64,000 nucleotides of DNA from assembly GCF_027474825.1 (NCBI RefSeq), contig NZ_CP107030.1:2672529-2736528 (forward strand). Reading direction: 5' to 3'. The notes under the pieces were generated by a model. The model did not search any database. It was not told where the DNA came from and saw only the letters and a program-made list of their open reading frames with translations. Each line of letters begins with the position of its first letter. The stretch's first letter is position 1. Below are positions 372 through 63,950 of the stretch, in pieces. The translations under genes were made by a program, and so were the position numbers. Source of the DNA: Maribacter halichondriae. GTDB taxonomy: Bacteria; Bacteroidota; Bacteroidia; Flavobacteriales; Flavobacteriaceae.

Positions 372-414
372 TAAAATTAGAAGGCAAGGGGTCGATTACC
401 TATGACAATTATCA
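372..414 (-). promoter_or_regulatory. CRP/FNR-type operator plus -7 box (USP at 346)
   Basis: The palindrome core TGACAATTATCA is at 403-414. On the minus strand it is followed by 23 bp and then TAATTTTA (372-379). The operator overlaps the stop codon of the neighbouring USP gene. Its centre is about 62 bp from the start codon at 346. Confidence 0.75.
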
Positions 415-1260
415 GTCTTGATGTGGAAGTATTAAAAAGGGGATATCCGAATAGATACTGACATCCTTGATGACAGGTTCGCGTACCAACTTTTCGAAAA
501 AGCTTCGTTTGTGGTGTGCCATTGCAAACATATCAATGTCAAGTTTTTCTAAAAAAGTATCTATTACCTGGGCCTTATCGGTAAAATTCTGCATCCAATG
601 AAAACTATGATCGACATTCTTTAGGCAAAGTTCCAGTAGCTTTCTATGGGACTCCTGTTCTTTGTTCAGAATTTTCTCTTCATTGATATGCATGACCCGA
701 ATGGAGGCATCGCTAAACGAGGCCAAATACAATAACGGAGCTATCGTTTCCTTGGCACAGCCTTTTTTGAAATCGGTCACAAAAGCAATTTCTTTAGGCG
801 CCTTGTAATCAATTTGTTTGGGCACCGCCAAAATAGGGCATTTGGTCAATGTGTTGGCAGCTTGCACAGTATTACTTCCTAAAAAGATTTCTTTGGCACC
901 CGTATTACCTTTCGTGCCCATAACTACCAAATCTATTTGATGATCGTCAATGGTTTTAGCCAATACCTTAACAAGTATCCCTTTTTTTGAAATTGTCTGA
1001 AAACGGTGTTGGGGGTTTTCGGTGTCCATTATGATTTTATGGTAGGTACTTGTCAACTTTTCTTTTGATTCTGTCGCTATTTCCTTTAGCCGTTTCTTAC
1101 TACCAAAAAGTTTGGTTTTTTTTCCATGTAAGGGCGTGTTTTCATCAAAAACATTCAGTATGTAAATGGCACAAGGTCTTGATGCCATTAATTTGGAAAT
1201 ATAGAATAGCGCGCAATAGGCGTCGTTCGAGAAATCAGTGGCAACCAATATGTTCTTCAT
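412..1260 (-). CDS. Universal stress protein, tandem USP domains
   Basis: About 282 aa. Domain 1 starts MKNILVATDFS and carries the nucleotide loop MGTKGNTGAKEIFLGS, matching the ATP-binding G-2x-G-9x-G(S/T) pattern. Domain 2 (about residues 150-282) keeps the fold but lacks the loop, ending in the HKRSFFEKL...PFLILP pattern that recurs in all USPs of this array. The start is ambiguous between the ATGs at 1269 and 1260; I prefer 1260 because it aligns with the family N-terminus. The gene lies about 10 bp downstream of the next USP (1271-2107), so it is the second gene of that transcript, driven from 2132-2174. Its stop codon overlaps the operator of the following gene. Confidence 0.92.
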   Translation of the reverse strand: MKNILVATDFSNDAYCALFYISKLMASRPCAIYILNVFDENTPLHGKKTKLFGSKKRLKEIATESKEKLTSTYHKIIMDTENPQHRFQTISKKGILVKVLAKTIDDHQIDLVVMGTKGNTGAKEIFLGSNTVQAANTLTKCPILAVPKQIDYKAPKEIAFVTDFKKGCAKETIAPLLYLASFSDASIRVMHINEEKILNKEQESHRKLLELCLKNVDHSFHWMQNFTDKAQVIDTFLEKLDIDMFAMAHHKRSFFEKLVREPVIKDVSIYSDIPFLILPHQD

Positions 1261-1270
1261 CGTTTTCATC

Positions 1271-2107
1271 TTATAATTGTGGAATGACCATAAAAGGTAC
1301 CGTAATATGGAACCCAATTTTTTTGATGACCGGTTCTATAAACAGACGCTCTAAAAACGTATGTTTGTTCTGTACCATGACCAATAGATTGATTTTTTCC
1401 TTGAGCTGAAAATCATTGATGGCATCGATAATTTCGTTGTCTGGCATATCATGGAAAAGAGCCTTATCTCCTAAAAGCTTTTCAAGTTGCAGCTTGTGTT
1501 TTTCCTGTGTACTCGTGAGGTCAAATTCTGTACGGACATGCATCACGTTGATTCGGGATTGGTGTTCTTCTGCGATGGTCAAAAGGGCATCGAAGTTTTC
1601 CTTTTTATACTCGATTTCATAATCTGTGGGAAACAAGATTTCTTTAGGGGCTTCATACTCAAATTTTGGAGGTACCGCTAATACGGCACACTTGGCCCTT
1701 TTAATAACGTGTACGGTATTGGTGCCGAACAGAATTTCCTTTGCCCCGGTGGCTCCTTTGGTACCCATGACCACTAAACCTATATTTTCATTTTCTATGG
1801 TTTCAGCGATTTCGCCCAATAGGGTATTGAAGGCCGTATGCACCTTAAAGGTGTGCTTCGGATTTTCATACAGATTTTCCAAACTACTTTGTAATTGCTC
1901 CAACTGCGTTTGGGAAGTTTCATGCATTATATCGCCCAGGCCAATCTGTCCCGGACTCCCCAAAAGATATTCTGTATGATAGATGGGAGGTGTATAGGTA
2001 TGCAAAAGATAGAAAGTACATTCTATATCTTTAAAAGCAAGCAGGGCATATCGGATTGCTTCAAAAGCGTTATCGGAAAAGTCGGTGGGCAGTAAAATTC
2101 GCTTCAT
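1271..2107 (-). CDS. Universal stress protein, tandem USP domains
   Basis: 278 aa. Domain 1 begins MKRILLPTDFSDNAFEA and has a complete nucleotide loop (MGTKGATGAKEILFGTNTV, near residues 133-151). Domain 2 has no loop and ends in NKHTFLERLF...VPFMVIP. It leads a two-gene operon with the USP at 412-1260. Its promoter (-7 box TAGATTTA) shares one operator with the divergent thioredoxin gene, so the two should be co-induced. The role is inferred from family membership: a nucleotide-binding stress regulator or chaperone-like protein in the cytosol. Confidence 0.93.
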   Translation of the reverse strand: MKRILLPTDFSDNAFEAIRYALLAFKDIECTFYLLHTYTPPIYHTEYLLGSPGQIGLGDIMHETSQTQLEQLQSSLENLYENPKHTFKVHTAFNTLLGEIAETIENENIGLVVMGTKGATGAKEILFGTNTVHVIKRAKCAVLAVPPKFEYEAPKEILFPTDYEIEYKKENFDALLTIAEEHQSRINVMHVRTEFDLTSTQEKHKLQLEKLLGDKALFHDMPDNEIIDAINDFQLKEKINLLVMVQNKHTFLERLFIEPVIKKIGFHITVPFMVIPQL

Positions 2108-2131
2108 TGCGCTGGAATTTAGATTTCGATA

Positions 2132-2205
2132 TAAATCTAGCGGAGAAGAATTCCAAAAACCATGATATCGGTCAGTTGGGCGTATTTATGGTTTTGGTAA
2201 TTTTA
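2132..2205. promoter_or_regulatory. Shared divergent operator: USP 2107 (-) and thioredoxin (+)
   Basis: The core TGATATCGGTCA (2163-2174) is flanked symmetrically by two -7 boxes, each exactly 23 bp away: TAGATTTA on the minus strand (2132-2139) and TAATTTTA on the plus strand (2198-2205). One bound dimer would sit at about -41 for both promoters. This is among the clearest cases for the proposed regulon. Confidence 0.82.
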
Positions 2206-2223
2206 TATTTAAAGTTTAAACCT

Positions 2224-2523
2224 ATGAAGAGCAGTTTCAATAAGATTATCGATTCGGAGATACCGGTTCTGGTAGATTTTTACGCGGATTGGTGCGGACC
2301 GTGCAAAATGCTGGCGCCGATATTAAAACAAGTGAAGGACGAAATGGGCGATGCCCTGAAAATCGTAAAGATAGATGTGGATAAAAATCAGCCCTTAGCA
2401 AACAAATATCAGGTTCGTGGCGTGCCGACCATGCTTTTGTTCAAAAACGGGCAACCGGTCTGGCGGCAATCAGGGGTTTTACAAAAGGCGGATATTGTAC
2501 AAATTGTAAAATCCCATAGTTAG
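2224..2523 (+). CDS. trxA: Thioredoxin
   Basis: 99 aa with the active site WCGPC (Cys24/Cys27) after the strand VLVDFYAD and the cis-proline motif GVPTM. It is a cytosolic dithiol-disulfide reductant, slightly short for a thioredoxin (usually about 105 aa) but complete. The ATG at 2224 is chosen because it gives the normal thioredoxin N-terminus and lies about 55 bp after the operator centre; an upstream in-frame extension would run through the promoter. It is the only gene on the plus strand in the USP array, and its operator is shared with the divergent USP, suggesting that redox repair is part of the same response. Confidence 0.93.
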   Translation: MKSSFNKIIDSEIPVLVDFYADWCGPCKMLAPILKQVKDEMGDALKIVKIDVDKNQPLANKYQVRGVPTMLLFKNGQPVWRQSGVLQKADIVQIVKSHS

Positions 2524-2546
2524 GCGAATTGCTTGCTATTTAAGGG

Positions 2547-3385
2547 TTATTCATGCAACACCAAAAAAGGGATGGTGGTATGGTAACTGATTTTCTCTAC
2601 GGTAGGCCTGAACAAAATTCGTTGTAGGAAATTCAGGTTTTTTGCGACCATAACGACCATGTCGATATCCCTGCTTTCCGTAAAACATTGCACGGCCGTC
2701 TCCAGTTTTTCTCCCGTTACTTTATGGAAACTATGCTCGGTTCCTGAAAAATAATCGCCTAGATATTCTTGGTTCTTGGTTTGTTCCATGGTAAGTTCCT
2801 CGCCGGCTTTAGAAATGTAGAGAAAGCGCACCGAAGAACTGTTCACTAACGCAAACTCTTTTATAGCTTCCAATACTTTGATATCGTAACTCAAATGATA
2901 GTCCGTAGGGAAAGCGATTTCTTTGGGTCTGTGATATTCTGTATCCTCAGGAACTGCCAAAACGGGACACTTTACCTTGGTAATTACATTACCAGTGTTA
3001 CTCCCCATCGCAACCGCTTTTAGGCCGCTGGCACCTTTTGTGCCCATGATGATCGATCAATGTTTTTGTCCTCGACCTCTTGCTTAATATGGTCTGTAAA
3101 AAATCCATAGAACGCCAGGATATGAAACGTATGCTTAGTGTTAAAGGGCTGCCGTTCTATCTCTTTAAGCAGTTTTTCAAGTTTTTCAATGCTTTTCTTT
3201 AGAATACTTTGCTCAAGAAGTTCTTGGGTCGCATACATGGCCGCTTCGCCACCCGCATGGGCCGCAATGGGGCTTACATGTACTATGTAAAAGGTACATT
3301 TTGATTTTTTGAACAAGGCCATTCCATACTGCATGGCGTTCCAGGCATTATCTGAAAAATCTGTGGGTATCAGTATGTTTTTCAT
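2547..3385 (-). pseudogene. Universal stress protein, interrupted by one frameshift
   Basis: The N-terminal part (MKNILIPTDFSDNAWNA, 3385 down to about 3056) and the C-terminal part (from MGTKGASGL, about 3047 to 2547) are in different frames. The break is at about 3054-3055, where DKNID should continue as (L)IIMGTKG: one base is missing before ATCATCATG. Repaired, it is a normal USP of about 279 aa with an intact nucleotide loop. Its C-terminal domain (VMVAKNLNFLQR...LHE) closely matches the USP at 7251-8087, so these two form a sub-family. It may be a real null allele or a sequencing error; the many other 1-bp indels in this window favour error. Confidence 0.85.
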
Positions 3386-3411: not shown

Positions 3412-3454
3412 TAAAAGTAATCGACCCTTAATCTCTTCCCAATGACGAATATCA
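3412..3454 (-). promoter_or_regulatory. Operator plus -7 box (USP at 3385)
   Basis: The core TGACGAATATCA is at 3443-3454, followed after 23 bp on the minus strand by TACTTTTA (3412-3419). On the plus side a weaker TAATTTCA (3476-3483) sits 21 bp away and might serve the small gene at 3530. Confidence 0.75.
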
Positions 3455-3529
3455 TGATTTCGTTTTCAACTGACCTAATTTCATTTTAAGTTCGCCGGTT
3501 CTGTCTTATTTTTCAGAAAACCTAGAAAA

Positions 3530-3733
3530 ATGAAAGCACTCACTACCCTAAAAAATGTGGACTCCGATTCCTGTAAGAAAATTATCGTTCGCAACTTGAA
3601 CCGCATATTGGACATCCGAATTATCGACAGCGATGTTGAGAATGGTATACTCTGTTTCCTTTATAATGGACAGAAGGCCTTATTACGCTATCAATCTATT
3701 AGGGGAAAGATCAAAAATGGTACTTCGGTATGA
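3530..3733 (+). CDS. Small hypothetical protein, HMA-like fold
   Basis: 67 aa. The pattern is beta-alpha-beta-beta-like (SCKKIIVRNLNRILDIRIIDSDVENGILCFLYNG), which recalls the small heavy-metal-associated ferredoxin-like fold. The usual CxxC metal motif is absent, so metal binding is not supported. The last 43 bp overlap the 3' end of the convergent USP gene (3691-4548). It lies 80 bp from the operator centre at 3443-3454. I regard it as a probable small gene of unknown function; coding is inferred from its non-repetitive, protein-like sequence and its start just after the promoter region. Confidence 0.5.
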   Translation: MKALTTLKNVDSDSCKKIIVRNLNRILDIRIIDSDVENGILCFLYNGQKALLRYQSIRGKIKNGTSV

Positions 3734-4548
3734 AAGGCCACTCGTTTTATTACGTTCTCCTTTGTCAACTTCTCAAAAAAACTATGCCAATAATTGATCA
3801 TCGCTATCATCCCGATATTCTTATTTTCGGATGCATACGACATAATAGCCTCAGAGATTTTGGCATGCCCTTCGACCTCCATAAATTTATAGTTCAATCC
3901 TTTTAGCAGCTGGGTCAATAAATCTTTATTGGTCTCCTGTTGGCGGCTCAATCCTTTTCCTTTATCTACATGAACAACTAGAATCTCGGAGTTCCAAAGT
4001 TTGGCTATTTCGATAAGCGGAACCAGTTCCACTTTTAAATAGGTATGTTCAAAATTTGTGGCGAAAGCAATTTTGTCCGGCAGGTCAAAGTCATAATTGC
4101 CGGGCACTGCCATAATCGGACAGAAGTCTAAGTTCTGTAAGACCTTAATGGTACTGCTGCCCATAAACACTTCCTTGGCCGCTGAAGAACCTTTAGTGCC
4201 CATAAAAATATAGTAGATATTCTCGTCTATGGCGGTGCGGCCAATGGCGTTTATCAAGGTATCGGCGATACTCAGGCCTTCAAAAGAGTGGAGCGGGTTT
4301 TCATTTTCGGATTCCAATTCTTGTACAAGCCGTTTTATGTTTCTTTCCGACTCTTCTTTTATGGCTCGGAACAAACGAGTATCCTTCGCCTTGCCCATGG
4401 TGCTGCTCAATCCAGAAGCCCCTACTTCAAAGGAGTTCAAAACATAAAACTTGCACTCGACCTTTTCGAATAGATAAATGGCATAATCGATTGCATTATG
4501 GGCATTTGCTGAAAAATCAGTGGGTAAAAGAATATGTTTGGTTTTCAT
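3691..4548 (-). CDS. Universal stress protein, tandem USP domains
   Basis: 285 aa from the ATG at 4548 (MKTKHILLPTDFSANAHNA); a longer start at 4563 exists, but the shorter one aligns with the paralogues. The nucleotide loop is MGTKGSSAAKEVFMGSSTI. Domain 2 ends with INYWHSFFEKL...VPFLIFP. It is the last gene of a four-USP operon (7155 to 3691) with gaps of only 6-34 bp, read from the promoter at 7178-7220. Its 3' end overlaps the small gene on the other strand. Confidence 0.92.
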   Translation of the reverse strand: MKTKHILLPTDFSANAHNAIDYAIYLFEKVECKFYVLNSFEVGASGLSSTMGKAKDTRLFRAIKEESERNIKRLVQELESENENPLHSFEGLSIADTLINAIGRTAIDENIYYIFMGTKGSSAAKEVFMGSSTIKVLQNLDFCPIMAVPGNYDFDLPDKIAFATNFEHTYLKVELVPLIEIAKLWNSEILVVHVDKGKGLSRQQETNKDLLTQLLKGLNYKFMEVEGHAKISEAIMSYASENKNIGMIAMINYWHSFFEKLTKENVIKRVAFHTEVPFLIFPLID

Positions 4549-4582
4549 GGCACTTTCTTTCAATTCAAATAATTAAGACTTA

Positions 4583-5428
4583 TCATTTCTCAGGAAGCAT
4601 CAACACCGGAACTTTGGAGTGAAAAGCGATTTTTTTCACGACCGGCTCCCCGATGACTTTTTCCCAAAACGTGTGGTGATAGCGTATCATCGCCATCAAA
4701 TCCGCATCATTTTCAGACAAGTATTTTTCAACGCTATCGGAGATGTTCCCATCAAATTCTACGTTTTGGAAGGAATAGTCCAAAGTTGAAAGACGATTCT
4801 CCAAAATTTTTAGATTTGCCTTTTGAGTATCGTTCAACAAAAATTCAACCGCTACATGCAGAATCTGTATGTTGGCTTTCCAAAGTGCGGCCAATTCGGT
4901 CAACGGCAAGAGTTCGAACTTTTCAAAGGTTCTTGTAAAATCAGTGGGGAAGATCAAGGTTTTCAAATTTTGAAAATTATAGCCGGATGGCACCACCAGA
5001 ACAGGGCAATTTCTTACCCTTTTCAGCACCTTTACCGTATTACTACCTATAAAGATTTCTTTGGCACCCGTTGCGCCTTGTGTTCCCATTACTACAAGGT
5101 CGATATCTTTTTCCGATACCAGTTCCCTAACAGCCTCCTCTAAGGTTTCCGATTTTGAAACAGTTTCGAAACTGTGTTTTGGATTACTATGGTTTTTATT
5201 CAAATACCCCAAAACCTTATCCAACTCCTGGGTTGAATATTGTGCCAACGAATCGTAAATGGTACCTAAGCGCGTTTGGCCTTTTCGACCAAGCATATTC
5301 AATGCACTGGGTTCATAGGCATGTAAAATGTAAAACTTACATGTTACTTCGGTATAAAGTTTGACAGCCGTAAATATGGCGTTCCAAGCATTATCTGAAA
5401 AATCGGTGGGCAAGAGGATTTTCTTCAT
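4583..5428 (-). CDS. Universal stress protein, tandem USP domains
   Basis: 281 aa. Domain 1 is MKKILLPTDFSDNAWNAIFTA with the loop MGTQGATGAKEIFIGSNTV; domain 2 ends YHHTFWEKVIGEPVVKKIAFH...VLMLPEK. The Lys-to-Gln change in MGTQG is shared with the next two upstream USPs, so genes 4583, 5435 and 6310 probably arose by local duplication. It is the third gene of the four-USP operon, 6 bp downstream of the preceding USP. Confidence 0.92.
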   Translation of the reverse strand: MKKILLPTDFSDNAWNAIFTAVKLYTEVTCKFYILHAYEPSALNMLGRKGQTRLGTIYDSLAQYSTQELDKVLGYLNKNHSNPKHSFETVSKSETLEEAVRELVSEKDIDLVVMGTQGATGAKEIFIGSNTVKVLKRVRNCPVLVVPSGYNFQNLKTLIFPTDFTRTFEKFELLPLTELAALWKANIQILHVAVEFLLNDTQKANLKILENRLSTLDYSFQNVEFDGNISDSVEKYLSENDADLMAMIRYHHTFWEKVIGEPVVKKIAFHSKVPVLMLPEK

Positions 5429-5434: not shown

Positions 5435-6292
5435 TTATTTTTTACTTTCTTCAGAGGCATAGGGCATGACCAAAAATGGAATTTTGGTATGATAGCCGAT
5501 GGAGTCTACATTTGGCTGTACGATCAATCGATCTAAAAAGGAATGTTTACGGTTCATCATGGCCAAAAGTCCGACACCGTGCTGTTCGATATACTCATGG
5601 ATAGCGTTGGGCATCAATTTGCCCTTGACCTGTTCAAATTTGGGATGTAGCGTATAATAATAGGATGCCAAAGACGCTTTGTTCTCTCTTTGGCCATCCG
5701 TTAGGTCATAATCGTCCTTTACGTTCAGAATGGTCAGTTTAGCATTATGCATTTTGGTCATATCGATAAGCATTTGTACTTCCTCTTTCTCAACGGAATT
5801 TACATAATCGGAAGGAAATAAAACGGATTTCAGTTCCCTGAAGACATATCCGTTGGGAACGACCAATACGGGTATTCTCGATTTTCTGATGACGTGAACG
5901 GTGCGTGTGCCAAGAAATATTTCCTTGGCACCAGTGGCCCCTTGGGTGCCCATGATGATTATATCAATGTTTTTACTTTCGGTTACTTCCCTGATTTCAT
6001 CTGTTAGCATGTTAAAGGCCGAAAGGGTCTTGAACTGGTGTTTTGTATTTTTATAGTTCTTTCCGATATCCGCAAGGGTTTGGTCCAGACCGGCCTGGGC
6101 AATATCTACGCCCGCGTCGGGTATGGCACTAAAAGTAGGCCCTCCCATCATATAATCCGCTCGGTAGAAAGAAGGGGTGTAGGTGTGCAGGATATAGAAA
6201 GTACAGCTCTCGTTCTTAAAAAAATGCAGTGCATATACAATCGCGTTCCATGCGTTGTCAGAGAAATCAGTAGGCAGCAGAATTTTTTTCAT
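5435..6292 (-). CDS. Universal stress protein, tandem USP domains
   Basis: 285 aa. It begins MKKILLPTDFSDNAWNAIVYA, nearly identical to the start of the USP at 4583. The nucleotide loop is MGTQGATGAKEIFLGTRTVHV. Domain 2 carries MMNRKHSFLDRLIVQPNVDSIGYH and a short charged tail (SEESKK). It is the second gene of the four-USP operon, about 17 bp downstream of the USP at 6310-7155. Confidence 0.92.
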   Translation of the reverse strand: MKKILLPTDFSDNAWNAIVYALHFFKNESCTFYILHTYTPSFYRADYMMGGPTFSAIPDAGVDIAQAGLDQTLADIGKNYKNTKHQFKTLSAFNMLTDEIREVTESKNIDIIIMGTQGATGAKEIFLGTRTVHVIRKSRIPVLVVPNGYVFRELKSVLFPSDYVNSVEKEEVQMLIDMTKMHNAKLTILNVKDDYDLTDGQRENKASLASYYYTLHPKFEQVKGKLMPNAIHEYIEQHGVGLLAMMNRKHSFLDRLIVQPNVDSIGYHTKIPFLVMPYASEESKK

Positions 6293-6309: not shown

Positions 6310-7155
6310 TTATCGCGGCAGATTTTGCATTACCAAAAACGGAAGTTTTAGATGCAGACCGATTTCATCCACAGTCGATCGGTACAACATATCTTCCAAA
6401 AACGAATGTCTTGCGTTTACCATAACCAATAGATTTACTTCATTTTTTGAGATGTATTCCATAATGGCTTCTGCCTTGTTCTTGACGGGAGTCCTCTCAA
6501 AATAGACATAGGCTTTGGGTAAGGATTCCTGCAAAAAGCGCTTATTGTCCAACTGTCTGTGGCTTAGATCCTCGAAATCGGAGATATACAGACAATGGAC
6601 TTCCGATTTGAATTCATCCGCTAGATTATTCAAAAGTTTCAATTCCCTACGCTTATAGGGTAGCATATAATCGGTTGGAAATAATACTTTTTTAGGTTGT
6701 CGGTATTCATAATTTTCAGGAATGGCCAAAACAGGACATTGTACATATTTGAACACTTGTACGGTGTGGCTACCAAACGTAATTTTTTTATCCGCCGTTT
6801 GTCCTTGGGTACCCATGACGACCAGATCAACATTGATTTGGTTGGCGAAATCGTTTATGGCATCTACCAACGATTCAAAGGCGGATACAGATTCATATGA
6901 ATGTTTCGGGTTACGGGTTTTTTCTTCGATTTCTGTGACCAGCTTTTTTAGCGCCTCTTCAGCATTGGCCTTTACCATCTTTTTTTGTTCATCCATAGAT
7001 TCCCCGCCATTCTTTTTAAAGGGCCCATACACCTCATCGGCATAGGCATGCAAAAAATAAAAATTAGTACGTTCGCATTTGTAGAGATTCAACGCGTATT
7101 CGATGGCGTGCATCGCATTGGCTGAAAAGTCGGTAGGGATCAATACGGTTCTCAT
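6310..7155 (-). CDS. Universal stress protein, tandem USP domains
   Basis: 281 aa from the ATG at 7155 (MRTVLIPTDFSANAMHA); the in-frame ATG at 7176 would fall at or before the predicted transcription start. The loop is divergent (MGTQGQTADKKITFGSHTV) but keeps the glycines and the G-S pair needed for nucleotide binding. Domain 2 ends NARHSFLEDML...LPFLVMQ. It is the first gene of the four-USP operon and is preceded by an ideal -7 box (TAACTTTG) and an operator. Confidence 0.92.
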   Translation of the reverse strand: MRTVLIPTDFSANAMHAIEYALNLYKCERTNFYFLHAYADEVYGPFKKNGGESMDEQKKMVKANAEEALKKLVTEIEEKTRNPKHSYESVSAFESLVDAINDFANQINVDLVVMGTQGQTADKKITFGSHTVQVFKYVQCPVLAIPENYEYRQPKKVLFPTDYMLPYKRRELKLLNNLADEFKSEVHCLYISDFEDLSHRQLDNKRFLQESLPKAYVYFERTPVKNKAEAIMEYISKNEVNLLVMVNARHSFLEDMLYRSTVDEIGLHLKLPFLVMQNLPR

Positions 7156-7177
7156 GGGTCTGTCTTTTGATAACATT

Positions 7178-7220
7178 CAAAGTTATTTGCAGTGATGTGC
7201 AAAACCTATGATATATATCA
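7178..7220 (-). promoter_or_regulatory. Operator plus -7 box (four-USP operon)
   Basis: The core TGATATATATCA is at 7209-7220. After 23 bp on the minus strand comes TAACTTTG (7178-7185), a perfect TAnnTTTG box. It should drive the USPs from 7155 down to 3691. Confidence 0.8.
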
Positions 7221-7250
7221 GTAGCAAGTATTCAAAAAGACAATGGAAAA

Positions 7251-8087
7251 CTATTCGTGCAGTACCAACAATGGCACGCAAGTATGGAAACTCAATTTTT
7301 CTATGGTGGTATCAAACAAGAGTCGTTGCAGAAAATTAAGGTTCTTGGCCACCATGACCACCATATCGATATTTTCGGTATTTGCGAAGGCTTCGATAGA
7401 AGCTTTGACGTTTTTGTCTTCCAAGGTGTGAAAGCTATGCGATGTCGCAAAAAGTTCTTCAAGGTAATCTTGCAGATAAGCTCTGTTTTTTTTTTGGGTT
7501 GGGTCAAGGCCTCTTTTGATGCTTGATACATGTATGACCTGCATGTTGGCCTTGCAGATACGGAGTATTTCCGAGATGGTTTCTAATATAGGGTGGGAAT
7601 AGAAAATATTATAATCGGTCGGGAAAGCAATTTCTTTGGGACTGCCCGACCTTGCGTTTTCGGGAATGACCAAAAGATTACATGGTACTTTGGTAATAAC
7701 ATCGCCTGTATTGCTCCCTACCACTGATTCCTTGATTCCCGATGCGCCTTTGGTTCCCATAATGATAAGGTCTATTTTTTTCTCTTGCACGATTTTGCGC
7801 AAAATGTTGACCAAATTGCCATAATCTTGTAAGGCGACAAAGTGGTGATCTTGGTTGATTGGTAATTGTTCTATCCGTCGAAAAAGATTATCAAGCTTTT
7901 CCTTTATAGAGGTAGCTATCTGGCCCACGGGCATTGTAAATGAATTGCTCTCCACGGAAGAATGCTTTAAATCGTCCACATGAAGTATATAGAAATTGCA
8001 CGGGATGTCCTTGAACAAACTAACAGCATATGCTAGCGCGCTCCAAGAGTTTTCTGAAAAGTCGGTGGGGATTAGTATGGTTTTCAT
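7251..8087 (-). CDS. Universal stress protein, tandem USP domains
   Basis: 278 aa. It starts MKTILIPTDFSENSWSALAYA; the loop is MGTKGASGIKESVVGSNTGDV; the C-terminal domain ends MVAKNLNFLQRLLF...CVPLLVLHE. It is the closest paralogue in the window of the frameshifted USP at 2547-3385 (same SNTG and NLNFLQR signatures). It is separated from the four-USP operon by a promoter, so it is probably monocistronic under its own operator at 8136-8147. Confidence 0.92.
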   Translation of the reverse strand: MKTILIPTDFSENSWSALAYAVSLFKDIPCNFYILHVDDLKHSSVESNSFTMPVGQIATSIKEKLDNLFRRIEQLPINQDHHFVALQDYGNLVNILRKIVQEKKIDLIIMGTKGASGIKESVVGSNTGDVITKVPCNLLVIPENARSGSPKEIAFPTDYNIFYSHPILETISEILRICKANMQVIHVSSIKRGLDPTQKKNRAYLQDYLEELFATSHSFHTLEDKNVKASIEAFANTENIDMVVMVAKNLNFLQRLLFDTTIEKLSFHTCVPLLVLHE

Positions 8088-8104: not shown

Positions 8105-8147
8105 CTAATTTAGGTACACAATAGTCAGTAAAATATGATTTTTGTCA
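8105..8147 (-). promoter_or_regulatory. Operator plus -7 box (USP at 8087)
   Basis: The core TGATTTTTGTCA is at 8136-8147. After 23 bp on the minus strand comes TAAATTAG (8105-8112), a one-mismatch -7 box; the same variant recurs at 38821. Confidence 0.7.
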
Positions 8148-8183
8148 TGCAACGAATCTTTTGGAAAAAGAATCGAAAAATAC

Positions 8184-9237
8184 CTAGTTCACATATTGAA
8201 GGGCTTTCAATTCCTTGATTTTGATATTACGCCCCTCAATGTCGATGAGCCCTTCCTTTTTAAATCCTGATAGTGTTCTAATTAAGCTTTCCGTGGCTAT
8301 TCCCGCGACACTCGCCAAATCGTTCCTTGAAATCTTGATGGGGTTTTCTGTCTTATTGTTCATGATTTCGGCAAACTGCAAAAGCGTCTGTGCCGTTTTT
8401 CTTACGAACCGAACTATAGGCCATTTGCAACAGTTGCGCCTTGATTTCGGTAATATTTTGCGTAAGTAGTTCCATCAGTTCCAGGGAAATGTTATGATTT
8501 TTCTCAAGGATATCCTTTAGCTTCTGCTTCGATATTCCAGCAAGTTCAACGTCTTCAATGACCGTTGCGGATTCTTGATAGGGAATGTTGTTCAAAAATG
8601 AAGTGAATCCCAGAAAATCATCGGCTCGGTATAAAGTAGTAATAAGTTCTTTACCGTCCTCGTCCATTGTATGGCACTTTACCAGGCCTTTTAAAATAAG
8701 GTAAATGATATTTGAGCGCGAACCTTCTTGATAAATGGCCTGACCTGTAGTAAAACTGGCCGGTTCGCCATTATCGTCAAAAAAGTTTTTTAGCTCGTTT
8801 AGGGTACGCATCTCCTCATCCGAGACTTGTGGTTTTAAAGAGCCATCGCGAATCATACGCCCCAAAAGTTCGGCCTTTGCCAATCGGCTTTCCACAGCGC
8901 TGATGAGGTCTTCTTCTTCAAAAGGTTTGGTCAGGTAATCGTCGGCTCCAAGATCCATCCCTTTTCGAATTTCCTTATGCTCCGTTTTTGCGGAAAGGAA
9001 TATAAAAGGAATGTGCTTCGTTCTTTCATCCGCAGATAAATCTTGTAACACTCCGTAGCCATCCACCTCGGGCATCATGATATCACAGATTATGATATCG
9101 GGCAGTTTTTCCTTGCCGACCTGAATCCCGATTTTGCCGTTCGGGGCGGTAAGTACGTTATAACCGGAAAGTTCTAAAAGCTCTTCGGTGTTCTCGCGTA
9201 AAGCCTTGTCGTCTTCGATCAATAAAATAGTTTTCAT
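8184..9237 (-). pseudogene. Response regulator: receiver + CRP/FNR-type cNMP-fold + HTH (frameshifted)
   Basis: The receiver domain (residues 1-120) has acidic pocket IEDD, phospho-acceptor Asp52 in CDIMMPE, the switch region FLSAKT and KPFEEED. A CRP-like sensor beta-barrel follows (about 150-270, with ADDFLGFTSFL), then a C-terminal winged HTH (about 290-350) whose recognition helix ATESLIRTL has the E-x3-R pair used by CRP and FNR to read a TGA half-site. The HTH is in another frame: a run of five A (8396-8400, plus-strand T) should be four for SVRKKTAQTLLQFAEI to read through. Repaired length is about 350 aa. It lies 6 bp downstream of its kinase gene. It is one of two candidate regulators of the palindrome regulon. 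Confidence 0.85.
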
Positions 9238-10755: not shown

Positions 10756-10778
10756 GAACCAAAGTTAAACCTTTAAAC

Positions 10779-10821
10779 TGATTTTCGTCATAGAAAAGAA
10801 CTGTCGTTACGCTTACCTTCA
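10779..10821 (+). promoter_or_regulatory. Operator plus -7 box (TerB-like gene); also overlaps kinase promoter
   Basis: The core TGATTTTCGTCA is at 10779-10790, followed after 23 bp by TACCTTCA (10814-10821) for the plus-strand gene at 10848. On the minus strand the same operator lies just 11 bp from TAACTTTG in front of the kinase gene, a spacing expected to block rather than activate. Confidence 0.72.
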
Positions 10822-57456: not shown

Positions 57457-57529
57457 CAAAGGTATCGATATTAGAAAACTAATGTATGACCGTTGTCATT
57501 TTCAGCAAGGGGAAGCAATAGTACTTTTG
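57457..57529. promoter_or_regulatory. Shared divergent operator: patatin (-) and MscS (+)
   Basis: The core TGACCGTTGTCA (57487-57498) has TACTTTTG exactly 23 bp away on the plus strand (57522-57529) and TACCTTTG 22 bp away on the minus strand (57457-57464), the only place where I see 22 instead of 23. Confidence 0.8.
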
Positions 57530-57546
57530 ATTTGAAAATAGCCCCA

Positions 57547-58605
57547 ATGGATACCGATATTACAGAACTGTTTGGCAAAGAATCTTGGCTGACCCATGTA
57601 ACGGTGTTGTTGGTCTGTATATTGGTGGGCCTTGCATTACAGTGGGTTATCTTTTCAACCTTAAGATTATATAATCGTAAAAAACCAACAGTTCTAAAAG
57701 AGCAATTCCTAAAATATCTAAAAAGGCCTGCCAAGTTCTTTATTCCACTGCTACTTATTTATTTGACCTTATTTTTCTATTCAGAACTGAATGCCTTGGG
57801 GCATAAGGTCGTTGAAGTCCTGCTCATTATCAATTTTGCCTGGATATTGATAGCGGTATTGCAGGTATTGGAAGTGGTGGTAAAACAAAAATTTCAGATT
57901 GATGGCGGTCATAAGGCAAGAGAAAGAAAAGTACTGACCCAACTGCGATTTATAAAAAGTGTGGCGATAGTGGTAATCATTACGTTGGCGGTTGCCTCTA
58001 TTTTATGGAATATACCGGCCGCTCGCGAACTTGGCCAAACCATTCTTACATCTGCAGGGATTATAGGAATCATCGTGGGGGTTGCTGCACAAAAGTCACT
58101 TGCCAATCTGATCACAGGCTTTCAACTGGCCTTTACCCAAACGTTAAAAATCGATGACGAAGTGATGATCGAGGGCGAATTCGGCACCGTTGAAGATATG
58201 ACCCTTACTTACGTGGTGGTCAAAACTTGGGACTGGCGCCGACTGGTCTTACCGTTAAACTATTTCAACGATAAGCCCTTTGTGAATTGGAGCTTCAATT
58301 CAAAGGATATTATCAATAGCGTTTTTTTTTATGTGGATTACAGTTTTCCAGTGGAAGAACTGCGGAAAAAATTCATGGCGGTCTTAAGCGAAAACAAATT
58401 GTGGGATAAAAGAGTGGCCGAACTTTTGGTTACAGAAATAGATGATAGAACCATGCAGCTCAGGGCCAGTTTCAGCACTAAAAATGCCACCGCTGGCTGG
58501 AAACTACGTTGCGGTATTAGAGAAGAACTAGTAGGTTTTATTCAAGAATCATACCCCGACGCCCTTCCAAAACTAAGAAGAATGGACACAGAAGAGCTTC
58601 AGTGA
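57547..58605 (+). CDS. Small-conductance mechanosensitive channel (MscS family)
   Basis: 352 aa. Three to four N-terminal helices, then the pore helix TSAGIIGIIVGVAAQKSLANLITGFQLAF with the Ala/Gly-rich TM3, followed by the beta domain KIDDEVMIEGEFGTVEDMTLTYVVVKTWDWRRLVLPLNYFNDKPFVNWS. These channels open on osmotic downshock. The ATG at 57547 is chosen over upstream TTG codons because it lies 55 bp from the operator centre; the longer frame would begin inside the operator. Confidence 0.88.
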   Translation: MDTDITELFGKESWLTHVTVLLVCILVGLALQWVIFSTLRLYNRKKPTVLKEQFLKYLKRPAKFFIPLLLIYLTLFFYSELNALGHKVVEVLLIINFAWILIAVLQVLEVVVKQKFQIDGGHKARERKVLTQLRFIKSVAIVVIITLAVASILWNIPAARELGQTILTSAGIIGIIVGVAAQKSLANLITGFQLAFTQTLKIDDEVMIEGEFGTVEDMTLTYVVVKTWDWRRLVLPLNYFNDKPFVNWSFNSKDIINSVFFYVDYSFPVEELRKKFMAVLSENKLWDKRVAELLVTEIDDRTMQLRASFSTKNATAGWKLRCGIREELVGFIQESYPDALPKLRRMDTEELQ

Positions 58606-58960
58606 AACATATATTTATGCGGGTTTGTTCCTCTCGAAAAAGATGCCCTTTTGCCCCATTCTCTGAAAGTATCAAACCTGTTTTCGTGTTGCCTATTTTT
58701 TAAATCTAAAATTTGATTTTGGGACAAAAGAATGAAATTATCTGTATCCTATTTTCCTGGATGATGGTCTTCGCATGACCGATATCATTTTTCCCCAAAG
58801 GCCGCTGCGATATATTTACAGTAGCACATAAGAAATTACTGTGGCCGACCTCACCAATATGATTTACGGATAAAGTAGTAATTCACCTTTACATTTTTCC
58901 TGACAAGGGGATGGTCCTTTTTGATAGAAGAATTGACGCGAATTAAATTCTAATTAGGTT
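58606..58960 (+). promoter_or_regulatory. Upstream region of the LOV kinase operon with operator and -7 box
   Basis: The operator core TGACCGATATCA (58776-58787) is followed after 23 bp by TATATTTA (58811-58818). The kinase ATG at 58961 is about 140 nt further downstream, a long leader with no reading frame that I trust. No second -7 box is at the right distance on the minus strand. The remainder shows nothing else I can name. Confidence 0.7.
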
Positions 58961-61342
58961 ATGTCCGCAGCATTGGAAATAGAAAACGATCTTCTTTTTA
59001 AATATCTAGATACGGTGGCATCCATTTTTCTGGTTATCAATGCCGACCATTCCATAGCATTGGTCAATAGAATAGGATGTGAGGTTCTCGGATATGAAAG
59101 GGATGAAATCATCGGGAAGGACTGGTTCAAGAATTTAATTCCTAAAGCGGATAGAAATGAACTCCGTAAACTCTTTGACCAGGTCCTTGATGGTGCTATG
59201 GAAGCCCCCGACGTTTATGAAAACTGGGTCTTGGCGAAAGGAAACAAGCGCAAACTGATCCAATGGCGAAATGCGGTCCTAAAAGATGATAATGGCAAGG
59301 TTGTCGGTTTGATCAGTTCAGGGATAGATGTTACCCAACAAATGATTCTGGAAAGGGAATTGAGGGACAGCGAAGCCAAGAACAGGGCCATTTTGGATGC
59401 TATGCCCGATGTGATTACTGTTCATAATTTAACGGGCCAAATACTTGAAATACATGTGCCCGATGCGTCGTACCTGATTGCTCCCAAGGAAGAATTGATA
59501 GGCAAAAATGTGAGGGATCTATTGCCTCCGGATATTGCCGAACAACTAATGCACATATTTTCAAAGGTGCTCGATAATCGAAAAATGGAGACCTTGGATG
59601 TAACGGTACCGGTTTCCGATAGGTTGGTAGACTATGAATGTAGATTTGTTCCCCTCATCGGAGGTAGGGTCTTGACCATCGCTAGGGACATTACCCAAAT
59701 CAAGGTTGCCCAAAATGTGCTGCATACCCGAAACCGGGCCTTAGAGGCCGCAGGTAACGGAATCATTATTGCGGATGCTTTACAACCCGACCTCCCGATA
59801 ATTTATAGCAACAATGCATTTGCTCGCATAACGGGCTACAAGCAGAGCGAAGTTCTTGGTAAGAACTGCCGCTTTCTACAGAACGACGACCGCGACCAAG
59901 AAGAAATATCCATCGTGGCAAAGGCCATTGAACAAGGTGAACCTTGCCGGGTAGTACTGCGCAATTACCGAAAGGACGGGTCCCTTTTTTGGAACGAACT
60001 TTCCCTCACCCCGCTATACGACGAAAATCAAAAATTGACCCATTTTATAGGCGTACAAAACGATGTCACTGAAATTCTAGAAAGTAGAAGGAAGCTTGAA
60101 AATTATGCCGAAACGCTAAAGGAAAAAGTGGAAGAGCGCACCATGGAGATCGAATCCACGGTACAAAAACTGGTGGCGACCAATTTAAACTTGGAGGACC
60201 AGGTACAGGAAACCAAGTTGGCCGAAACCGAGGCCCAGCGAAGCCAGGCATTGTTCGGGGCCATTGCAAAAAACTTTCCCAAGGGGTTGATCGTAGTGTT
60301 CAACGCAGATTTTGAACTGACCTATTTGGAAGGAGAGGAATTCAGACGGTTCGTTTTGAACAAGGGCGATTTTGAAGGCATGCGCATCGATGATGTCACC
60401 ATCTTTTCAAAAGCCCAAAGAGAAAGCATAAAAGCAGATGTGGAAAAAACACTGAACGGTAAAAGCCTGTCTTTTGAAGTTGACTATCAAGACAATAGCT
60501 ACTCGGTAAATTCGACGCCTTTGTATTCCGATGGAAAAAAAGCCGTTTGGGCCTTGTTCGTATATCATAATATTACGGAACAGAAACAGGTACAAAAAGA
60601 ACTGGCAAAGGCGCTAAGGATCGAACGTGAATTGAACGAATTGAAATCCCGCTTTATCTCAATGGCTTCGCACGAATTCCGTACGCCCTTAAGTGCGATT
60701 TTATCCTCGGCCATTTTGATCGGCAAACAGAACGAACCGGGCAAGGAGGAACAAAGGAAAAAACACGTGGCACGAATCAGAAATGGCGTAAAAAACCTTG
60801 TGGTCATCCTAAACGATTTCCTCTCGTTGAGCAAACTGGAAGAGGGCAAGGTTCACGCTGTTCCAAAACGTTTTGAACTGGTCCAATTTTTAAAATTGTT
60901 ATTCGATGAAATGGAATCGAGCTTGAAGGAAGGCCAAAAGATCATATTAAAAACGCACGAAAAAGAGGTTTTGCTCTACCAAGACCCCAAATTGCTAAGC
61001 CACATCTTGATCAATTTGCTATCGAACGCCACCAAATATTCCGATGAAGGTCAAAATATACTTTTTGAGATTTCCGGTAAGGGCCAAGATGTACTATTAA
61101 AAATTCGGGACAAAGGCGTAGGAATCCCCAAAGAAGAACAACAACATCTGTTCGACCGTTTTTTTCGGGCGGCCAATGTGACCAATATACAAGGTACGGG
61201 CCTTGGCCTACATATCGTAAAGCAATATACCGATCTTATCGGCGGTACGGTAAGCTTTAAAAGTAAACTGGGTAAGGGAAGCACCTTTACCGTTCGACTT
61301 CCCCAAAACCTAGAACACCATGCAAAAAATATTACTGATTGA
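58961..61342 (+). CDS. LOV-domain multi-PAS sensor histidine kinase
   Basis: 793 aa, cytosolic. PAS1 about 10-128, PAS2 about 140-248, LOV/PAS3 about 258-372, coiled coil about 375-425, PAS4 about 430-542, then HisKA (SMASHEFRTP, His571) and HATPase (NLLSNATKYS, DKGVGIP, GTGLGL). The third PAS domain is a canonical LOV photosensor: GKNCRFLQ with photoactive Cys303, NYRKDGSLFWNE and FIGVQNDVTE, the residues that bind FMN and form the light-driven cysteinyl adduct. It predicts blue-light or flavin redox control. It overlaps the REC-CRP gene by 23 bp. Paralogous to the kinase at 9244-10755, which lacks the LOV domain. Confidence 0.93.
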   Translation: MSAALEIENDLLFKYLDTVASIFLVINADHSIALVNRIGCEVLGYERDEIIGKDWFKNLIPKADRNELRKLFDQVLDGAMEAPDVYENWVLAKGNKRKLIQWRNAVLKDDNGKVVGLISSGIDVTQQMILERELRDSEAKNRAILDAMPDVITVHNLTGQILEIHVPDASYLIAPKEELIGKNVRDLLPPDIAEQLMHIFSKVLDNRKMETLDVTVPVSDRLVDYECRFVPLIGGRVLTIARDITQIKVAQNVLHTRNRALEAAGNGIIIADALQPDLPIIYSNNAFARITGYKQSEVLGKNCRFLQNDDRDQEEISIVAKAIEQGEPCRVVLRNYRKDGSLFWNELSLTPLYDENQKLTHFIGVQNDVTEILESRRKLENYAETLKEKVEERTMEIESTVQKLVATNLNLEDQVQETKLAETEAQRSQALFGAIAKNFPKGLIVVFNADFELTYLEGEEFRRFVLNKGDFEGMRIDDVTIFSKAQRESIKADVEKTLNGKSLSFEVDYQDNSYSVNSTPLYSDGKKAVWALFVYHNITEQKQVQKELAKALRIERELNELKSRFISMASHEFRTPLSAILSSAILIGKQNEPGKEEQRKKHVARIRNGVKNLVVILNDFLSLSKLEEGKVHAVPKRFELVQFLKLLFDEMESSLKEGQKIILKTHEKEVLLYQDPKLLSHILINLLSNATKYSDEGQNILFEISGKGQDVLLKIRDKGVGIPKEEQQHLFDRFFRAANVTNIQGTGLGLHIVKQYTDLIGGTVSFKSKLGKGSTFTVRLPQNLEHHAKNITD

Positions 61343-62389
61343 AGACAATAAGGATGTACGTGAAAACACGGCGGACATTCTAGAATTTGCAAACTACAAG
61401 GTAGCGACCGCCGAAAATGGCAAGATAGGTGTTCAAAAAGCGAAACAGTTCAAACCCGATCTGATCGTTTGCGATATCATGATGCCCGAATTGGACGGCT
61501 ACGATGTATTGCGCAGTTTAGCCGGGGATGGACTTACGGCAAGCATCCCCTTTATTTTTCTAACGGCAAAGACCGATAGGGCCGACATGCGCCTAGGTAT
61601 GAACCTTGGGGCAGACGATTATTTGACCAAGCCCTTTGAGGAAAAAGAATTGTTGGACGCCATCACTTGCCGATTGAGTAAGTATGATTTTCTAAAGAAG
61701 GAAGTTGTCAAGAATTTGAAGGGCCTAACCGATTTTTTGGAAGAGGCATCGGAATATATGGATCTCGAAAGTCTTTCGAAAGACCATGAGCTGAAACATT
61801 ATGAAAAGAAGGAAATTATTTTTTGGGAAGGAGACAATGCCCATTCGCTCCACTTTATAGAAAGTGGAACCGTAAAGACGTATAAAAGTACCGAGGCAGG
61901 TAAAGAATTTGTGACCGGACTCTACGGCGCAGGCGATTTTATTGGGCAACTTTCCCTTTTGAGCAAGGAGGGAAAATATGTTGAAAATGCCATGGTAACG
62001 GAAGACGCAGCTCTAAGTGCCATACCAAGGAACGATTTTATCAAATTGCTCTATGACAATCCCATAGTCTCACAGAAATTTATCGAATTGATTTCCAACA
62101 ACTTGATCCACGTTCAGACACAATTGGTCGATATGGCCTTCGCCTCTGTGCGGCAGCGGGCCGCCAAGGCGCTTTTGGAATTGTACGAAAAGGGAATTAT
62201 AAAAGACAAGGCGAATGGGGTTTGGGTATTCCCCGTGAGGACTTTGCGGGCATGATCGGAACGGCTACCGAAACCGCCATACGAACCCTATCCGATTTTA
62301 AGGACGAAGGCCTGATTACCACCGATCATGGTAGAAGAATCCTTCTTTTAAACAAAGAGGAATTGGAAAGTATCGCTGAATTTGGGTAG
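61320..62389 (+). pseudogene. Response regulator: receiver + CRP/FNR-type cNMP-fold + HTH (frameshifted)
   Basis: Paralogue of the regulator at 8184-9237. The receiver has IEDN, Asp52 in CDIMMPE, FLTAKT and KPFEEKE; the cNMP-fold has EGDNAHSLHFIESGTVKTYKS and LYGAGDFIGQ; the HTH (MIGTATETAIRTLSDFKDEG) has the E-x3-R pair. The frame breaks at 62231-62234: C4 should be C5 for VWVFPREDFAGMIG to continue to the stop at 62389, about 356 aa. It is translationally coupled to the LOV kinase and is the main candidate for binding the palindrome operators, including the one in front of its own operon. Confidence 0.87.
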
Positions 62390-63027: not shown

Positions 63028-63033
63028 GCGGTT

Positions 63034-63363
63034 TTATTTCTGTAGTTGGGCATTCTTCTTTTTCAGGTCTTCGAGTTTGCGCTCCAACTTTTCAATAATC
63101 TCATCGGCCTTATAGCTCATCATAGAGACCGCCTCGTCAAGCTTGCGATCAAAGGTGTCTTTTTTCTCATTGGCTGATTTGGTAAGCTCTTCTTTGGCAT
63201 GCGAGATACGGTCTGAAAGGTCGTGTGTGGTATCCTCTACTTTTCTTTTTATTTTATGTCGCGTCTCGATTCCCTTGTCGGGAGCATATAGAATTCCGAT
63301 TCCCGCGCCGATTGCTGCCCCGGTCAACAGGGCCAATAGTACATTTCCACTATCGTTTGTCAT
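63034..63363 (-). CDS. YtxH domain protein
   Basis: 109 aa. The YtxH signature is LLALLTGAAIGAGIGILYAPDKGIETRHKIKRK: a glycine-zipper membrane helix then LYAPxxGxxTR. The rest is a long charged coiled coil (about 35-108). YtxH proteins are general-stress membrane proteins in Bacillus. First gene of the YtxH/holin-X/DUF6327 operon, under the operator-linked promoter at 63403-63445. Confidence 0.85.
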   Translation of the reverse strand: MTNDSGNVLLALLTGAAIGAGIGILYAPDKGIETRHKIKRKVEDTTHDLSDRISHAKEELTKSANEKKDTFDRKLDEAVSMMSYKADEIIEKLERKLEDLKKKNAQLQK

Positions 63364-63402
63364 GATTTTGTTTTTTAAGGTTATACATTCTTAATTTCTA
63401 AT

Positions 63403-63445
63403 CAAAAATAACTTGTTGGAAAGTGAACCGAAATGATTTCCGTCA
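63403..63445 (-). promoter_or_regulatory. Operator plus -7 box (YtxH operon)
   Basis: The core TGATTTCCGTCA is at 63434-63445. After 23 bp on the minus strand comes TATTTTTG (63403-63410), a perfect TAnnTTTG box. The start codon at 63363 is about 76 bp from the centre. Confidence 0.78.
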
Positions 63446-63501
63446 TGTTATAAGTATAAATTTCGAGTATTCCGGATTTTAAATAGCTTACATACCAAAG
63501 G

Positions 63502-63538
63502 TTTAAAAACAAAAACAGGAAGCCGAGGCCTCCTGTTT
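63502..63538 (-). terminator. Intrinsic terminator (minus strand)
   Basis: A hairpin with arms AAACAGGA (63513-63520) and TCCTGTTT (63531-63538), extended by an inner GCC/GGC, is followed on the minus strand by TTTTTGTTTTT. It would end transcripts coming from the right-hand regulated promoter. Confidence 0.65.
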
Positions 63539-63693
63539 CCTATGAGGGGTTAAAATTCGTTCGTACTTCCAACCAATCCTTTACACCACTTTATCGCTAA
63601 AATGACCTAGAGGTCGATTTTGGTTCGAACTGCATCGCTGCCCGCACTATGATCTATGCACCTTGCGGCAACATAAACCAATTTTTTAAAGAA

Positions 63694-63904
63694 ACCGGGA
63701 CACCGAAATGTCCCGGTCTCAAAGAAGGTATTGCATTTGCTTGTTACGCTTACAGCGGTTCACTCAAAATACCTATTGCTAGGCAGACTGGCAAACCACA
63801 GGGTCTAAAACAGCTGTGATACCTTCTCTGGGGCTCCGTTGCATTGCTGCGCCGAAGTACCCGTATCATAATATATTCAAAGAACGTTGTTGCTATTAAT
63901 TATG
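63694..63904 (-). ncRNA. Candidate structured RNA under operator control
   Basis: Transcription is predicted to start near 63904 from the -7 box at 63908. About 190 nt later comes a perfect 9-bp hairpin ACCGGGACA/TGTCCCGGT (63694-63717) followed on the minus strand by TTTCTTT. Between them AGAAGGTAT (63819-63827 on the minus strand) pairs with ATACCTTCT (63723-63731), closing a domain of about 105 nt. No convincing coding frame was found; short frames of 39 and 21 codons exist. The layout (long closing stem, bulged middle, terminator) is like 6S-type or regulatory RNAs, but no known family can be claimed by eye. Confidence 0.45.
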
Positions 63905-63907
63905 ATG

Positions 63908-63950
63908 CTAAAATACAGGGACTCTATCAGGGAGAAAATGACCTAGGTCA
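63908..63950 (-). promoter_or_regulatory. Operator plus -7 box (putative ncRNA)
   Basis: The core TGACCTAGGTCA (63939-63950) is a perfect 12-bp palindrome. After 23 bp on the minus strand comes TATTTTAG (63908-63915). No annotated gene follows, so the transcript is probably the candidate RNA. Confidence 0.68.

Follow-up and report, generated by a model that had tools for sequence, protein, structure and literature searches.

In this study, we characterized a set of operator-like palindromes, and the promoters, target genes and regulators associated with them, in the genome of Maribacter halichondriae. The whole stretch analysed (the window) is 64 kb long and covers positions 2672529-2736528 of contig NZ_CP107030.1 (assembly GCF_027474825.1; genome size 4.53 Mb). 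It carries repeated copies of the 14-mer MTGAYN4RTCAK, most of them at one fixed distance from a predicted -7 promoter box, and genes for two response regulators in which receiver (REC) and cNMP-binding domains are combined with a Crp-type helix-turn-helix (HTH) domain (REC-CRP). The sites and regulator genes are listed below with the -7 box and the downstream gene or open reading frame (ORF); aa, amino acids.

402-415, minus strand: operator, box 372-379; Usp-like gene beginning below, 279 aa, extending beyond the window
2162-2175, both strands: bidirectional operator, boxes 2198-2205 (plus; thioredoxin gene 2224-2523) and 2132-2139 (minus; Usp gene 1271-2107)
3442-3455, minus strand: operator, box 3412-3419; Usp-like ORF 3020-3385, then Usp ORF 2547-3047, probably a single gene in two frames
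7208-7221, minus strand: operator, box 7178-7185; Usp gene 6310-7176, then Usp genes 5435-6292, 4583-5428 and 3691-4563
8135-8148, minus strand: operator, box 8105-8112; Usp gene 7251-8087
8196-9237, minus strand: REC-CRP response regulator A; REC and cNMP ORF 8353-9237, Crp-type HTH 8196-8396 in a different frame
9244-10755, minus strand: PAS-PAS histidine kinase A, with two PAS stretches, directly upstream of REC-CRP A
10778-10791, plus strand: operator, box 10814-10821; gene 10848-11252, without a Pfam family
11547-11560, minus strand: operator, box 11517-11524; no downstream ORF of at least 70 aa found
12081-12094, plus strand: operator, box 12117-12124; WG-repeat protein gene 12149-12805
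17263-17276, plus strand: operator, box 17299-17306; DUF6090 gene 17547-18278
35625-35638, minus strand: operator, box 35595-35602; FAD amine oxidoreductase-like gene 33640-35475
35733-35746, plus strand: operator, box 35769-35776; gene 35841-36305, no family above the cut-off
38851-38864, minus strand: operator, box 38821-38828; small ORF 38589-38816
41156-41169: 14-mer; neither side has a -7 box at the fixed spacing
43829-43842, both strands: bidirectional operator, boxes 43865-43872 (plus; M50 peptidase-CBS gene, likely start near 43885) and 43799-43806 (minus; PfkB kinase gene 43273-43791)
49337-49350: 14-mer inside ORF 48874-49749, no box
53251-53264, both strands: bidirectional operator, boxes 53287-53294 (plus; Hsp20 gene 53332-53796) and 53221-53228 (minus; towards P-type ATPase 50846-52963)
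57486-57499, plus strand: operator, box 57522-57529; mechanosensitive channel gene within 57532-58605
58775-58788, plus strand: operator, box 58811-58818; operon of histidine kinase B and REC-CRP B (candidate autoregulation)
58961-61342, plus strand: histidine kinase B; its several PAS domains include a LOV domain with GKNCRFLQ
61320-62371, plus strand: REC-CRP response regulator B; REC and cNMP ORF 61320-62255, Crp-type HTH 62207-62371 in a different frame
63433-63446, minus strand: operator, box 63403-63410; YtxH-like gene 63034-63363
63938-63951, minus strand: operator, box 63908-63915; no downstream ORF of at least 70 aa found

The 14-mer occurs 20 times in the window, against a mean of 1.04 and a maximum of 4 in 100 dinucleotide shuffles; all 18 sites described in an earlier note on this DNA, which gave a chance rate of about one match per 65 kb, are among them. 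The two sites absent from it are that at 35733, which has a box, and that at 49337, which lies in an ORF without one and is probably a chance occurrence. A TAnnTT box stands exactly 22 bp past the 14-mer (23 bp past its 12-bp core) on 21 strand-sides of 18 sites, whereas each of the remaining offsets from 0 to 49 gave at most two boxes; since the TA..TT background in the window is 0.0067 per base, about 0.27 boxes would be expected over the 40 strand-sides. The fixed spacing claimed earlier is thus seen at 17 of the 18 noted sites, with 41156 as the exception, as well as at 35733, and the roughly 22 promoters implied there become 21 predicted promoters. Only two of the 20 sites lie inside ORFs of at least 150 aa, although such ORFs make up 77% of the window, and one of the two (43829) is upstream of the likely later start of the M50 gene. 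Neither equal density in coding regions nor random spacing, which the earlier note had itself named as grounds for giving up its regulon, was found.

The same elements recur across the genome, with 160 14-mers against 22 for the reversed pattern, and 89 composite sites (14-mer, N22 and TAnnTT box) against one in the reversed control. Most of these composites (74/89) fall within stretches at about 1.08-1.12, 1.68-1.74, 2.54-2.57 and 2.66-2.77 Mb, so that the set of sites is not confined to the window. A logo of the 89 composites shows A or C as the outer base on the side far from the box, T in 94% on the near side, a T-rich run after the operator and a box of the form TAnYTTTR. An ORF of at least 70 aa begins within 450 nucleotides (nt) of the box in 84 composites (median distance, 34 nt), and within 60 nt in 65/89, compared with 443/1564 other TA..TT words in the same DNA. 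We rejected the classical FNR box as the operator, since the version with CRP/FNR-box outer bases (KTGAYN4RTCAM) is joined to the same -7 box only twice in the genome. In Flavobacterium psychrophilum, according to the sections consulted, positions -12 to -5 are occupied by the -7 box of sigma-A promoters (PMC9723704). Because of the fixed spacing, this placement, if it holds here, would put the operator at -48 to -35, with a predicted centre at -41.5. Our literature search, with most of the subscription literature outside its coverage, found no title or opening of an abstract that pointed to the motif or to REC-CRP regulons in Bacteroidota. One study applied a MalR motif to a Flavobacteriales metagenome-assembled genome, and MTGAYN4RTCAK was not among the contents of that source that we examined (PMC8510549).

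The predicted promoters precede a mixture of stress and respiratory genes. The Pfam scan covered 50 of the 84 first genes; three were without a family and others had weak matches only. Among the first genes are 13 Usp-like and three Hsp20 genes and those for a Dps-like ferritin, DnaJ and a ribosome hibernation factor. Others encode FixS/CcoS, a HemN-like radical SAM protein (named by eye), a cytochrome c and a di-haem cytochrome c peroxidase. Further first genes encode Pta, two PPDK-type proteins, a zinc dehydrogenase, PNPOx, thioredoxin, PLD, MlaE and an FNR-like protein. As far as the portions consulted describe them, the target sets of DevR/OsdR (PMC5069765) and NmpR (PMC11841059) are similar to this mix.

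Seven Crp-type HTH domains score above the cut-off in the genome, and four of them share the recognition helix ATExxIR, namely that of the FNR-like protein (at 2.561 Mb) and those of three REC-CRP proteins, of which two are the window copies and the third is encoded at 1.694 Mb; an extra REC piece lies at 1.096 Mb. The two window REC-CRP proteins, which the earlier note had named for a binding test, are not the only candidate regulators. The FNR-like protein (P0003) consists of cNMP_binding and HTH_Crp_2 domains and aligns with solved FNR chains over residues 4-230. Four cysteines serve as cluster ligands in FNR. Both cysteine patterns that we searched for are present in 21 of the 25 FNR-like proteins read. 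The FNR-like gene itself has a composite site, as do a CcoS gene and a Usp-like gene within 3 kb of it. A full-length REC-CRP relative (L058) has the order Response_reg, cNMP_binding and HTH_Crp_2; in the window copies, both of which have Response_reg matches and a kinase gene directly upstream, the cNMP_binding and HTH_Crp_2 domains are split over two frames. In CRP, a Glu and an Arg/Ser pair of the pocket anchor cAMP. When L058 was aligned to the CRP-family chains 4ev0 and 3r6s, the pocket Glu was found to be replaced by Gln, and the Arg-Ser stretch was not kept. Among 16 Flavobacteriaceae REC-CRP loci, 14 have a same-strand upstream ORF, with a kinase H-box-like motif in 13 of those. Within the genome collection, REC-CRP B has its closest relatives in Maribacter and Arenibacter (71-76%).

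Helix residues 180, 181, 184 and 185 are T-E-I-R in 23/25 FNR-like proteins (five others were unread), and E with I-R recurs in 74 of 80 REC-CRP relatives, the full T-E-I-R in 39. Residue 180 is described as covarying with the base before TGA in the CRP/FNR family in the part of the source seen (PMC1274295), and the mapping of that base onto the first position of MTGAYN4RTCAK is our own step. The other three Crp-type proteins (1.709, 2.858 and 3.129 Mb; SRVVVSR, VREVISR and SRVVVSR) have Arg at the equivalent of CRP R180 in a by-eye alignment, and two of them are also without Glu at 181. We rejected them as the binder on helix residues only. The CRP/FNR-type gene at 1.709 Mb, whose product has Arg180 and no Glu181 by eye, is itself preceded by a composite site, so a cascade is possible.

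The distribution of sites among relatives bears on which of these regulators act. We sampled 149 Flavobacteriaceae genomes, one per genus and including this one, and used the 148 relatives for regulator tests. REC-CRP copies were counted from at most 15 scored candidates per genome and are thus at least the values given, with one genome that had REC-only matches dropped; the FNR-like orthologue was accepted at an E of about 1e-55 or better, and eight genomes with weaker matches were treated as lacking it. Composite sites are present in 135/149 genomes, REC-CRP in 65 and the FNR-like orthologue in 88 of the 148 relatives. Median site number is 1 with neither regulator (n = 30) and 10 with the FNR-like protein only (n = 53). 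Without the FNR-like protein, it is 15 for one REC-CRP (n = 22) and 28.5 for two or more (n = 8); with it, the corresponding medians are 29 (n = 27) and 43 (n = 8). All 14 genomes with zero sites have neither regulator, and the ten genomes of at least 2.8 Mb that have neither carry 0, 0, 0, 0, 0, 2, 2, 3, 4 and 11 sites. With the FNR-like protein and genome size controlled, site number correlates with REC-CRP copy number (r = 0.72). The 16 Flavobacteriaceae loci, picked by protein and not by motif, contain 64 14-mers against 2 reversed, with a box at offset 22 on 54/128 strand-sides (1.27 expected) and only 2/64 14-mers in ORFs of at least 150 aa (73% coverage).

The base directly after the 14-mer separates two classes of site. 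T follows the 14-mer (T-sites) in 47/68 composites of islands I1, I2 and I4 vs. 7/21 elsewhere (Fisher p = 0.005, post hoc). Partial correlations across the 148 relatives were controlled for genome size, for the respective other site class and for the respective other regulator. The number of T-sites follows REC-CRP copy number (r = 0.54, p = 1e-12) and not the FNR-like protein (r = -0.01), whereas non-T sites follow the FNR-like protein (r = 0.41, p = 3e-7) and not significantly REC-CRP (r = 0.11, p = 0.20). Uncontrolled, non-T sites also increase with REC-CRP number (Spearman 0.56), as would be expected were each of the two regulators to make some use of both classes.

Taken together, these observations make the operators of the 89 predicted promoters likely targets of the FNR-like protein and of REC-CRP proteins, which would activate a single low-oxygen/stress regulon in class II fashion. 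The CRP/FNR regulon with class II geometry that the earlier note had proposed is supported by the enrichment of a single spacing, the published -7 placement, the recognition helices and the tracking of sites with regulators over 148 genera. A dimer of either regulator would occupy -41.5, replacing the -33 element, and contact RNA polymerase. The FNR-like protein, with three of the four FNR cysteines, probably responds to oxygen, and REC-CRP, with a receiver domain and no cAMP-anchoring residues, probably responds to phosphorylation by the PAS/LOV kinases encoded upstream. REC-CRP would be favoured where a T directly follows the operator, and the FNR-like protein where another base does; we therefore propose that the two inputs share many promoters, unequally. 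The regulon seems to be family-wide, shared by the FNR-like protein and several REC-CRP proteins with slightly different operators.

Several observations weigh against this account. The REC-CRP genes of this genome are all interrupted in frame. P0003 keeps the CxxC pair and the internal Cys of FNR, but not the fourth cysteine (3/4), and oxygen as the signal is suggested by the nature of the target genes. Residue 180 varies in the REC-CRP relatives (K in 20, P in 8 and S in 6 of the 78 read), so the helix argument is loose for REC-CRP. Site-rich genomes with neither regulator exist (G048 with 28 sites, G147 with 25 and G138 with 11); G048 is 82% and G147 73% complete, and G138 is 99% complete, its 11 sites being unexplained. 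Likewise, at least 10 T-sites occur without REC-CRP in G048, G147 and G062 (84% complete, 25 T-sites). The 148-genome correlations are not adjusted for phylogeny (one genome per genus was used), and the distinction between T and non-T sites arose from this genome and G034, itself among those tested. Autoregulation of the kinase operons was rejected as a general rule, since a site precedes the operon start in only 6/16 Flavobacteriaceae loci; in three more (L062, L063 and L065) it precedes the gene before the kinase. The mechanosensitive-channel-like gene of the window (57532-58605), which has its own composite site, similarly precedes the kinase and REC-CRP genes, and L062, L063 and L065 have genes of similar length, likewise with a preceding site.

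The frame breaks are probably assembly errors. Interruption points differ among the three REC-CRP copies with a readable HTH (read by eye), 83 REC-CRP matches in 65 relatives have open frames of at least 347 aa, and among 34 conserved gene regions, some of which overlap, 6 are split over two frames (five distinct genes), unrelated genes included. Assembly indels are the likelier cause for these reasons, and programmed frameshifting of the REC-CRP genes was rejected on the same grounds. Pseudogenes are a possible but less likely reading of the REC-CRP copies.

Other explanations concern the signal, the binder or the origin of the repeats. It is possible, but less likely than not, that light or energy/redox stress takes the place of oxygen, with LOV and PAS kinases feeding REC-CRP. 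In kinase B, the LOV motif is canonical and the match to the YtvA model falls below that model's cut-off, and LOV-type motifs recur in 6/80 REC-CRP loci and in the directly upstream kinase of 4/16 Flavobacteriaceae loci; Usp, Hsp20, Dps-like and DnaJ proteins are also general stress proteins. LOV is nevertheless confined to a minority of loci, and CcoS, cytochrome c, cytochrome c peroxidase, the HemN-like protein and Pta point to respiration. A change of signal would in any case leave the operator logic as it is. We consider it unlikely that the FNR-like oxygen regulator owns the regulon by itself, with REC-CRP merely co-occurring with large regulons or binding elsewhere. The site before the FNR-like gene, those of the neighbouring CcoS and Usp-like genes, the typical FNR-type targets and the median of 10 sites in genomes with only this regulator are all consistent with sole ownership; by contrast, the 30 genomes with REC-CRP and no FNR-like protein at the cut-off (medians 15 and 28.5), the correlation with REC-CRP copies that persists after controls (r = 0.72) and the richness of REC-CRP loci in sites argue for a share of REC-CRP. 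It is very improbable that the binder is another CRP/FNR-type protein (1.709, 2.858 or 3.129 Mb) or an unrelated factor: seven Crp-type HTH domains do exist, and a composite site stands before the gene at 1.709 Mb, but the three proteins have Arg180, and two lack Glu181, unlike the four with T-E-x-x-I-R. An origin of the repeats by chance, composition or a repetitive element, in favour of which we found nothing, is next to impossible and was rejected, since it is contradicted by the shuffles, the reversed-pattern control and the single offset of the -7 box.

Outside Flavobacteriaceae, the operator also occurs in a tandem form. We examined 64 REC-CRP loci with other labels, picked by protein and nearly all from Bacteroidota (three were labelled as other groups). 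They contain 131 14-mers against 3 reversed, with 25/131 in ORFs of at least 150 aa (81% coverage), and 22 boxes lie at offset 22 and 29 at offset 44 (1.35 expected at either offset). In 23 of the 29 offset-44 cases, a second, weaker copy (at least 7/10 positions) lies exactly 22 bp on, compared with 0 to 6 at the other shifts printed, and such a copy is found 22 bp upstream in 10 of the 22 cases at offset 22; in the Flavobacteriaceae loci, an upstream copy occurs in only 1/53. Across 159 genomes of the class, an independent search for the 14-mer, N44 and TAnnTTTG found 115 matches, spread over 67 genomes, where the reversed control columns had 9; one pair of identical matches from a single genus is counted among the 115. 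A second copy stands at +22 in 90 of them at 7/10 or better and in 81 at 8/10 or better, and other shifts from 14 to 44 gave at most 12 and 3, respectively. These second copies suggest that tandem operators at -63.5 and -41.5 are frequent elsewhere in the class, beside single sites, and many promoters of other Bacteroidia families may thus take two tandem dimers. The tie of tandem sites to REC-CRP in those families comes solely from the 64 loci. In a sample of the phylum, single-site composites were present in 29/29 relatives from the family, and mostly numbered 0 to 2 in 223 genomes labelled outside the class.

When compared with known systems, the regulon is of the CRP/FNR kind, but is set apart by an operator of its own, by a two-component branch and, outside the family, by a tandem form. 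The regulons of FNR, ANR and FixK in Proteobacteria include cbb3 assembly, a HemN-type enzyme and Usp proteins. They are like the present system in operator length, N4 spacer, TGA/TCA core, predicted class II position and these target types, and the FNR-like protein matches FNR chains; unlike them, the outer base here is A or C rather than T, and response regulators share the operator. FNR proper differs in the fourth cysteine, which is missing in P0003, and in its box, TTGATN4ATCAA, which is not the operator here. Class II and class III promoters are both used by E. coli CRP, and the predicted -41.5 site of Flavobacteriaceae and the tandem upstream site of other families have their likeness there; the tandem spacing of exactly 22 bp, the Bacteroidota -7 box and a REC-CRP without cAMP-anchoring residues do not. 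HcpR/DNR, in the material available to us, share the architecture of half-sites and N4 and the covariation of residue 180 with a base, but HcpR differs in its consensus (TTGACN4GTCAA or GTAACN4GTTAC) and its N-oxide targets, and the HcpR2 regulons of most Bacteroides species comprise hcp genes only (PMC1274295).

Likeness in function extends to two-component systems of other phyla. The output domain of DosR is of the NarL/LuxR type. DosR/DevR of Mycobacterium and OsdR of Streptomyces, as portrayed in the excerpts consulted, resemble the present system in the two-component control of clustered Usp genes along with genes for PPDK, zinc alcohol dehydrogenase and heat-shock proteins, whereas here REC and cNMP domains are joined to a CRP-type output and the operator bears no relation to the OsdR box AGGGCCGATCGGCCCT (PMC5069765). 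NmpR of Myxococcus likewise governs a two-component, oxygen-linked regulon with Usp, CBS, HemN and cbb3-related genes, but through an NtrC-like rather than a CRP-type response regulator, again from a partial view of the source (PMC11841059). By analogy, the system would work like the DosR/DevR dormancy regulon, of which it is not a member. More tentatively, it is possible, though somewhat less likely than not, that Bacteroidia possess their own counterpart of the DosR dormancy system, in which a Fe-S FNR-like oxygen sensor and a family of REC-CRP proteins, some driven by blue-light LOV kinases, act on one operator and are split by the following base, and in which a single dimer is used at -41.5 in Flavobacteriaceae and often a tandem pair at -63.5 and -41.5 in the other families, so that an ancestral regulon switched architecture. 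The regulons of environmental Bacteroidota have been little mapped, and a sharp operator with fixed spacing makes a low-oxygen/stress programme readable from sequence in hundreds of genomes. The proposed combination of a direct sensor with paralogues driven by phosphorylation at a single operator offers a testable case of paralogues sharing and dividing a regulon, in which a one-base discriminator behaves as predicted across 148 genera, and the split between single and tandem sites is a case of promoter-architecture change within one class.

Additional features of the window lie beside the operators. An IS110-family transposase gene is found at 46743-48197, within the stress island. The P-type ATPase gene at 50463-52963 is split over two frames, and a second, intact P-type ATPase gene (53930-56584) is divergent from it.

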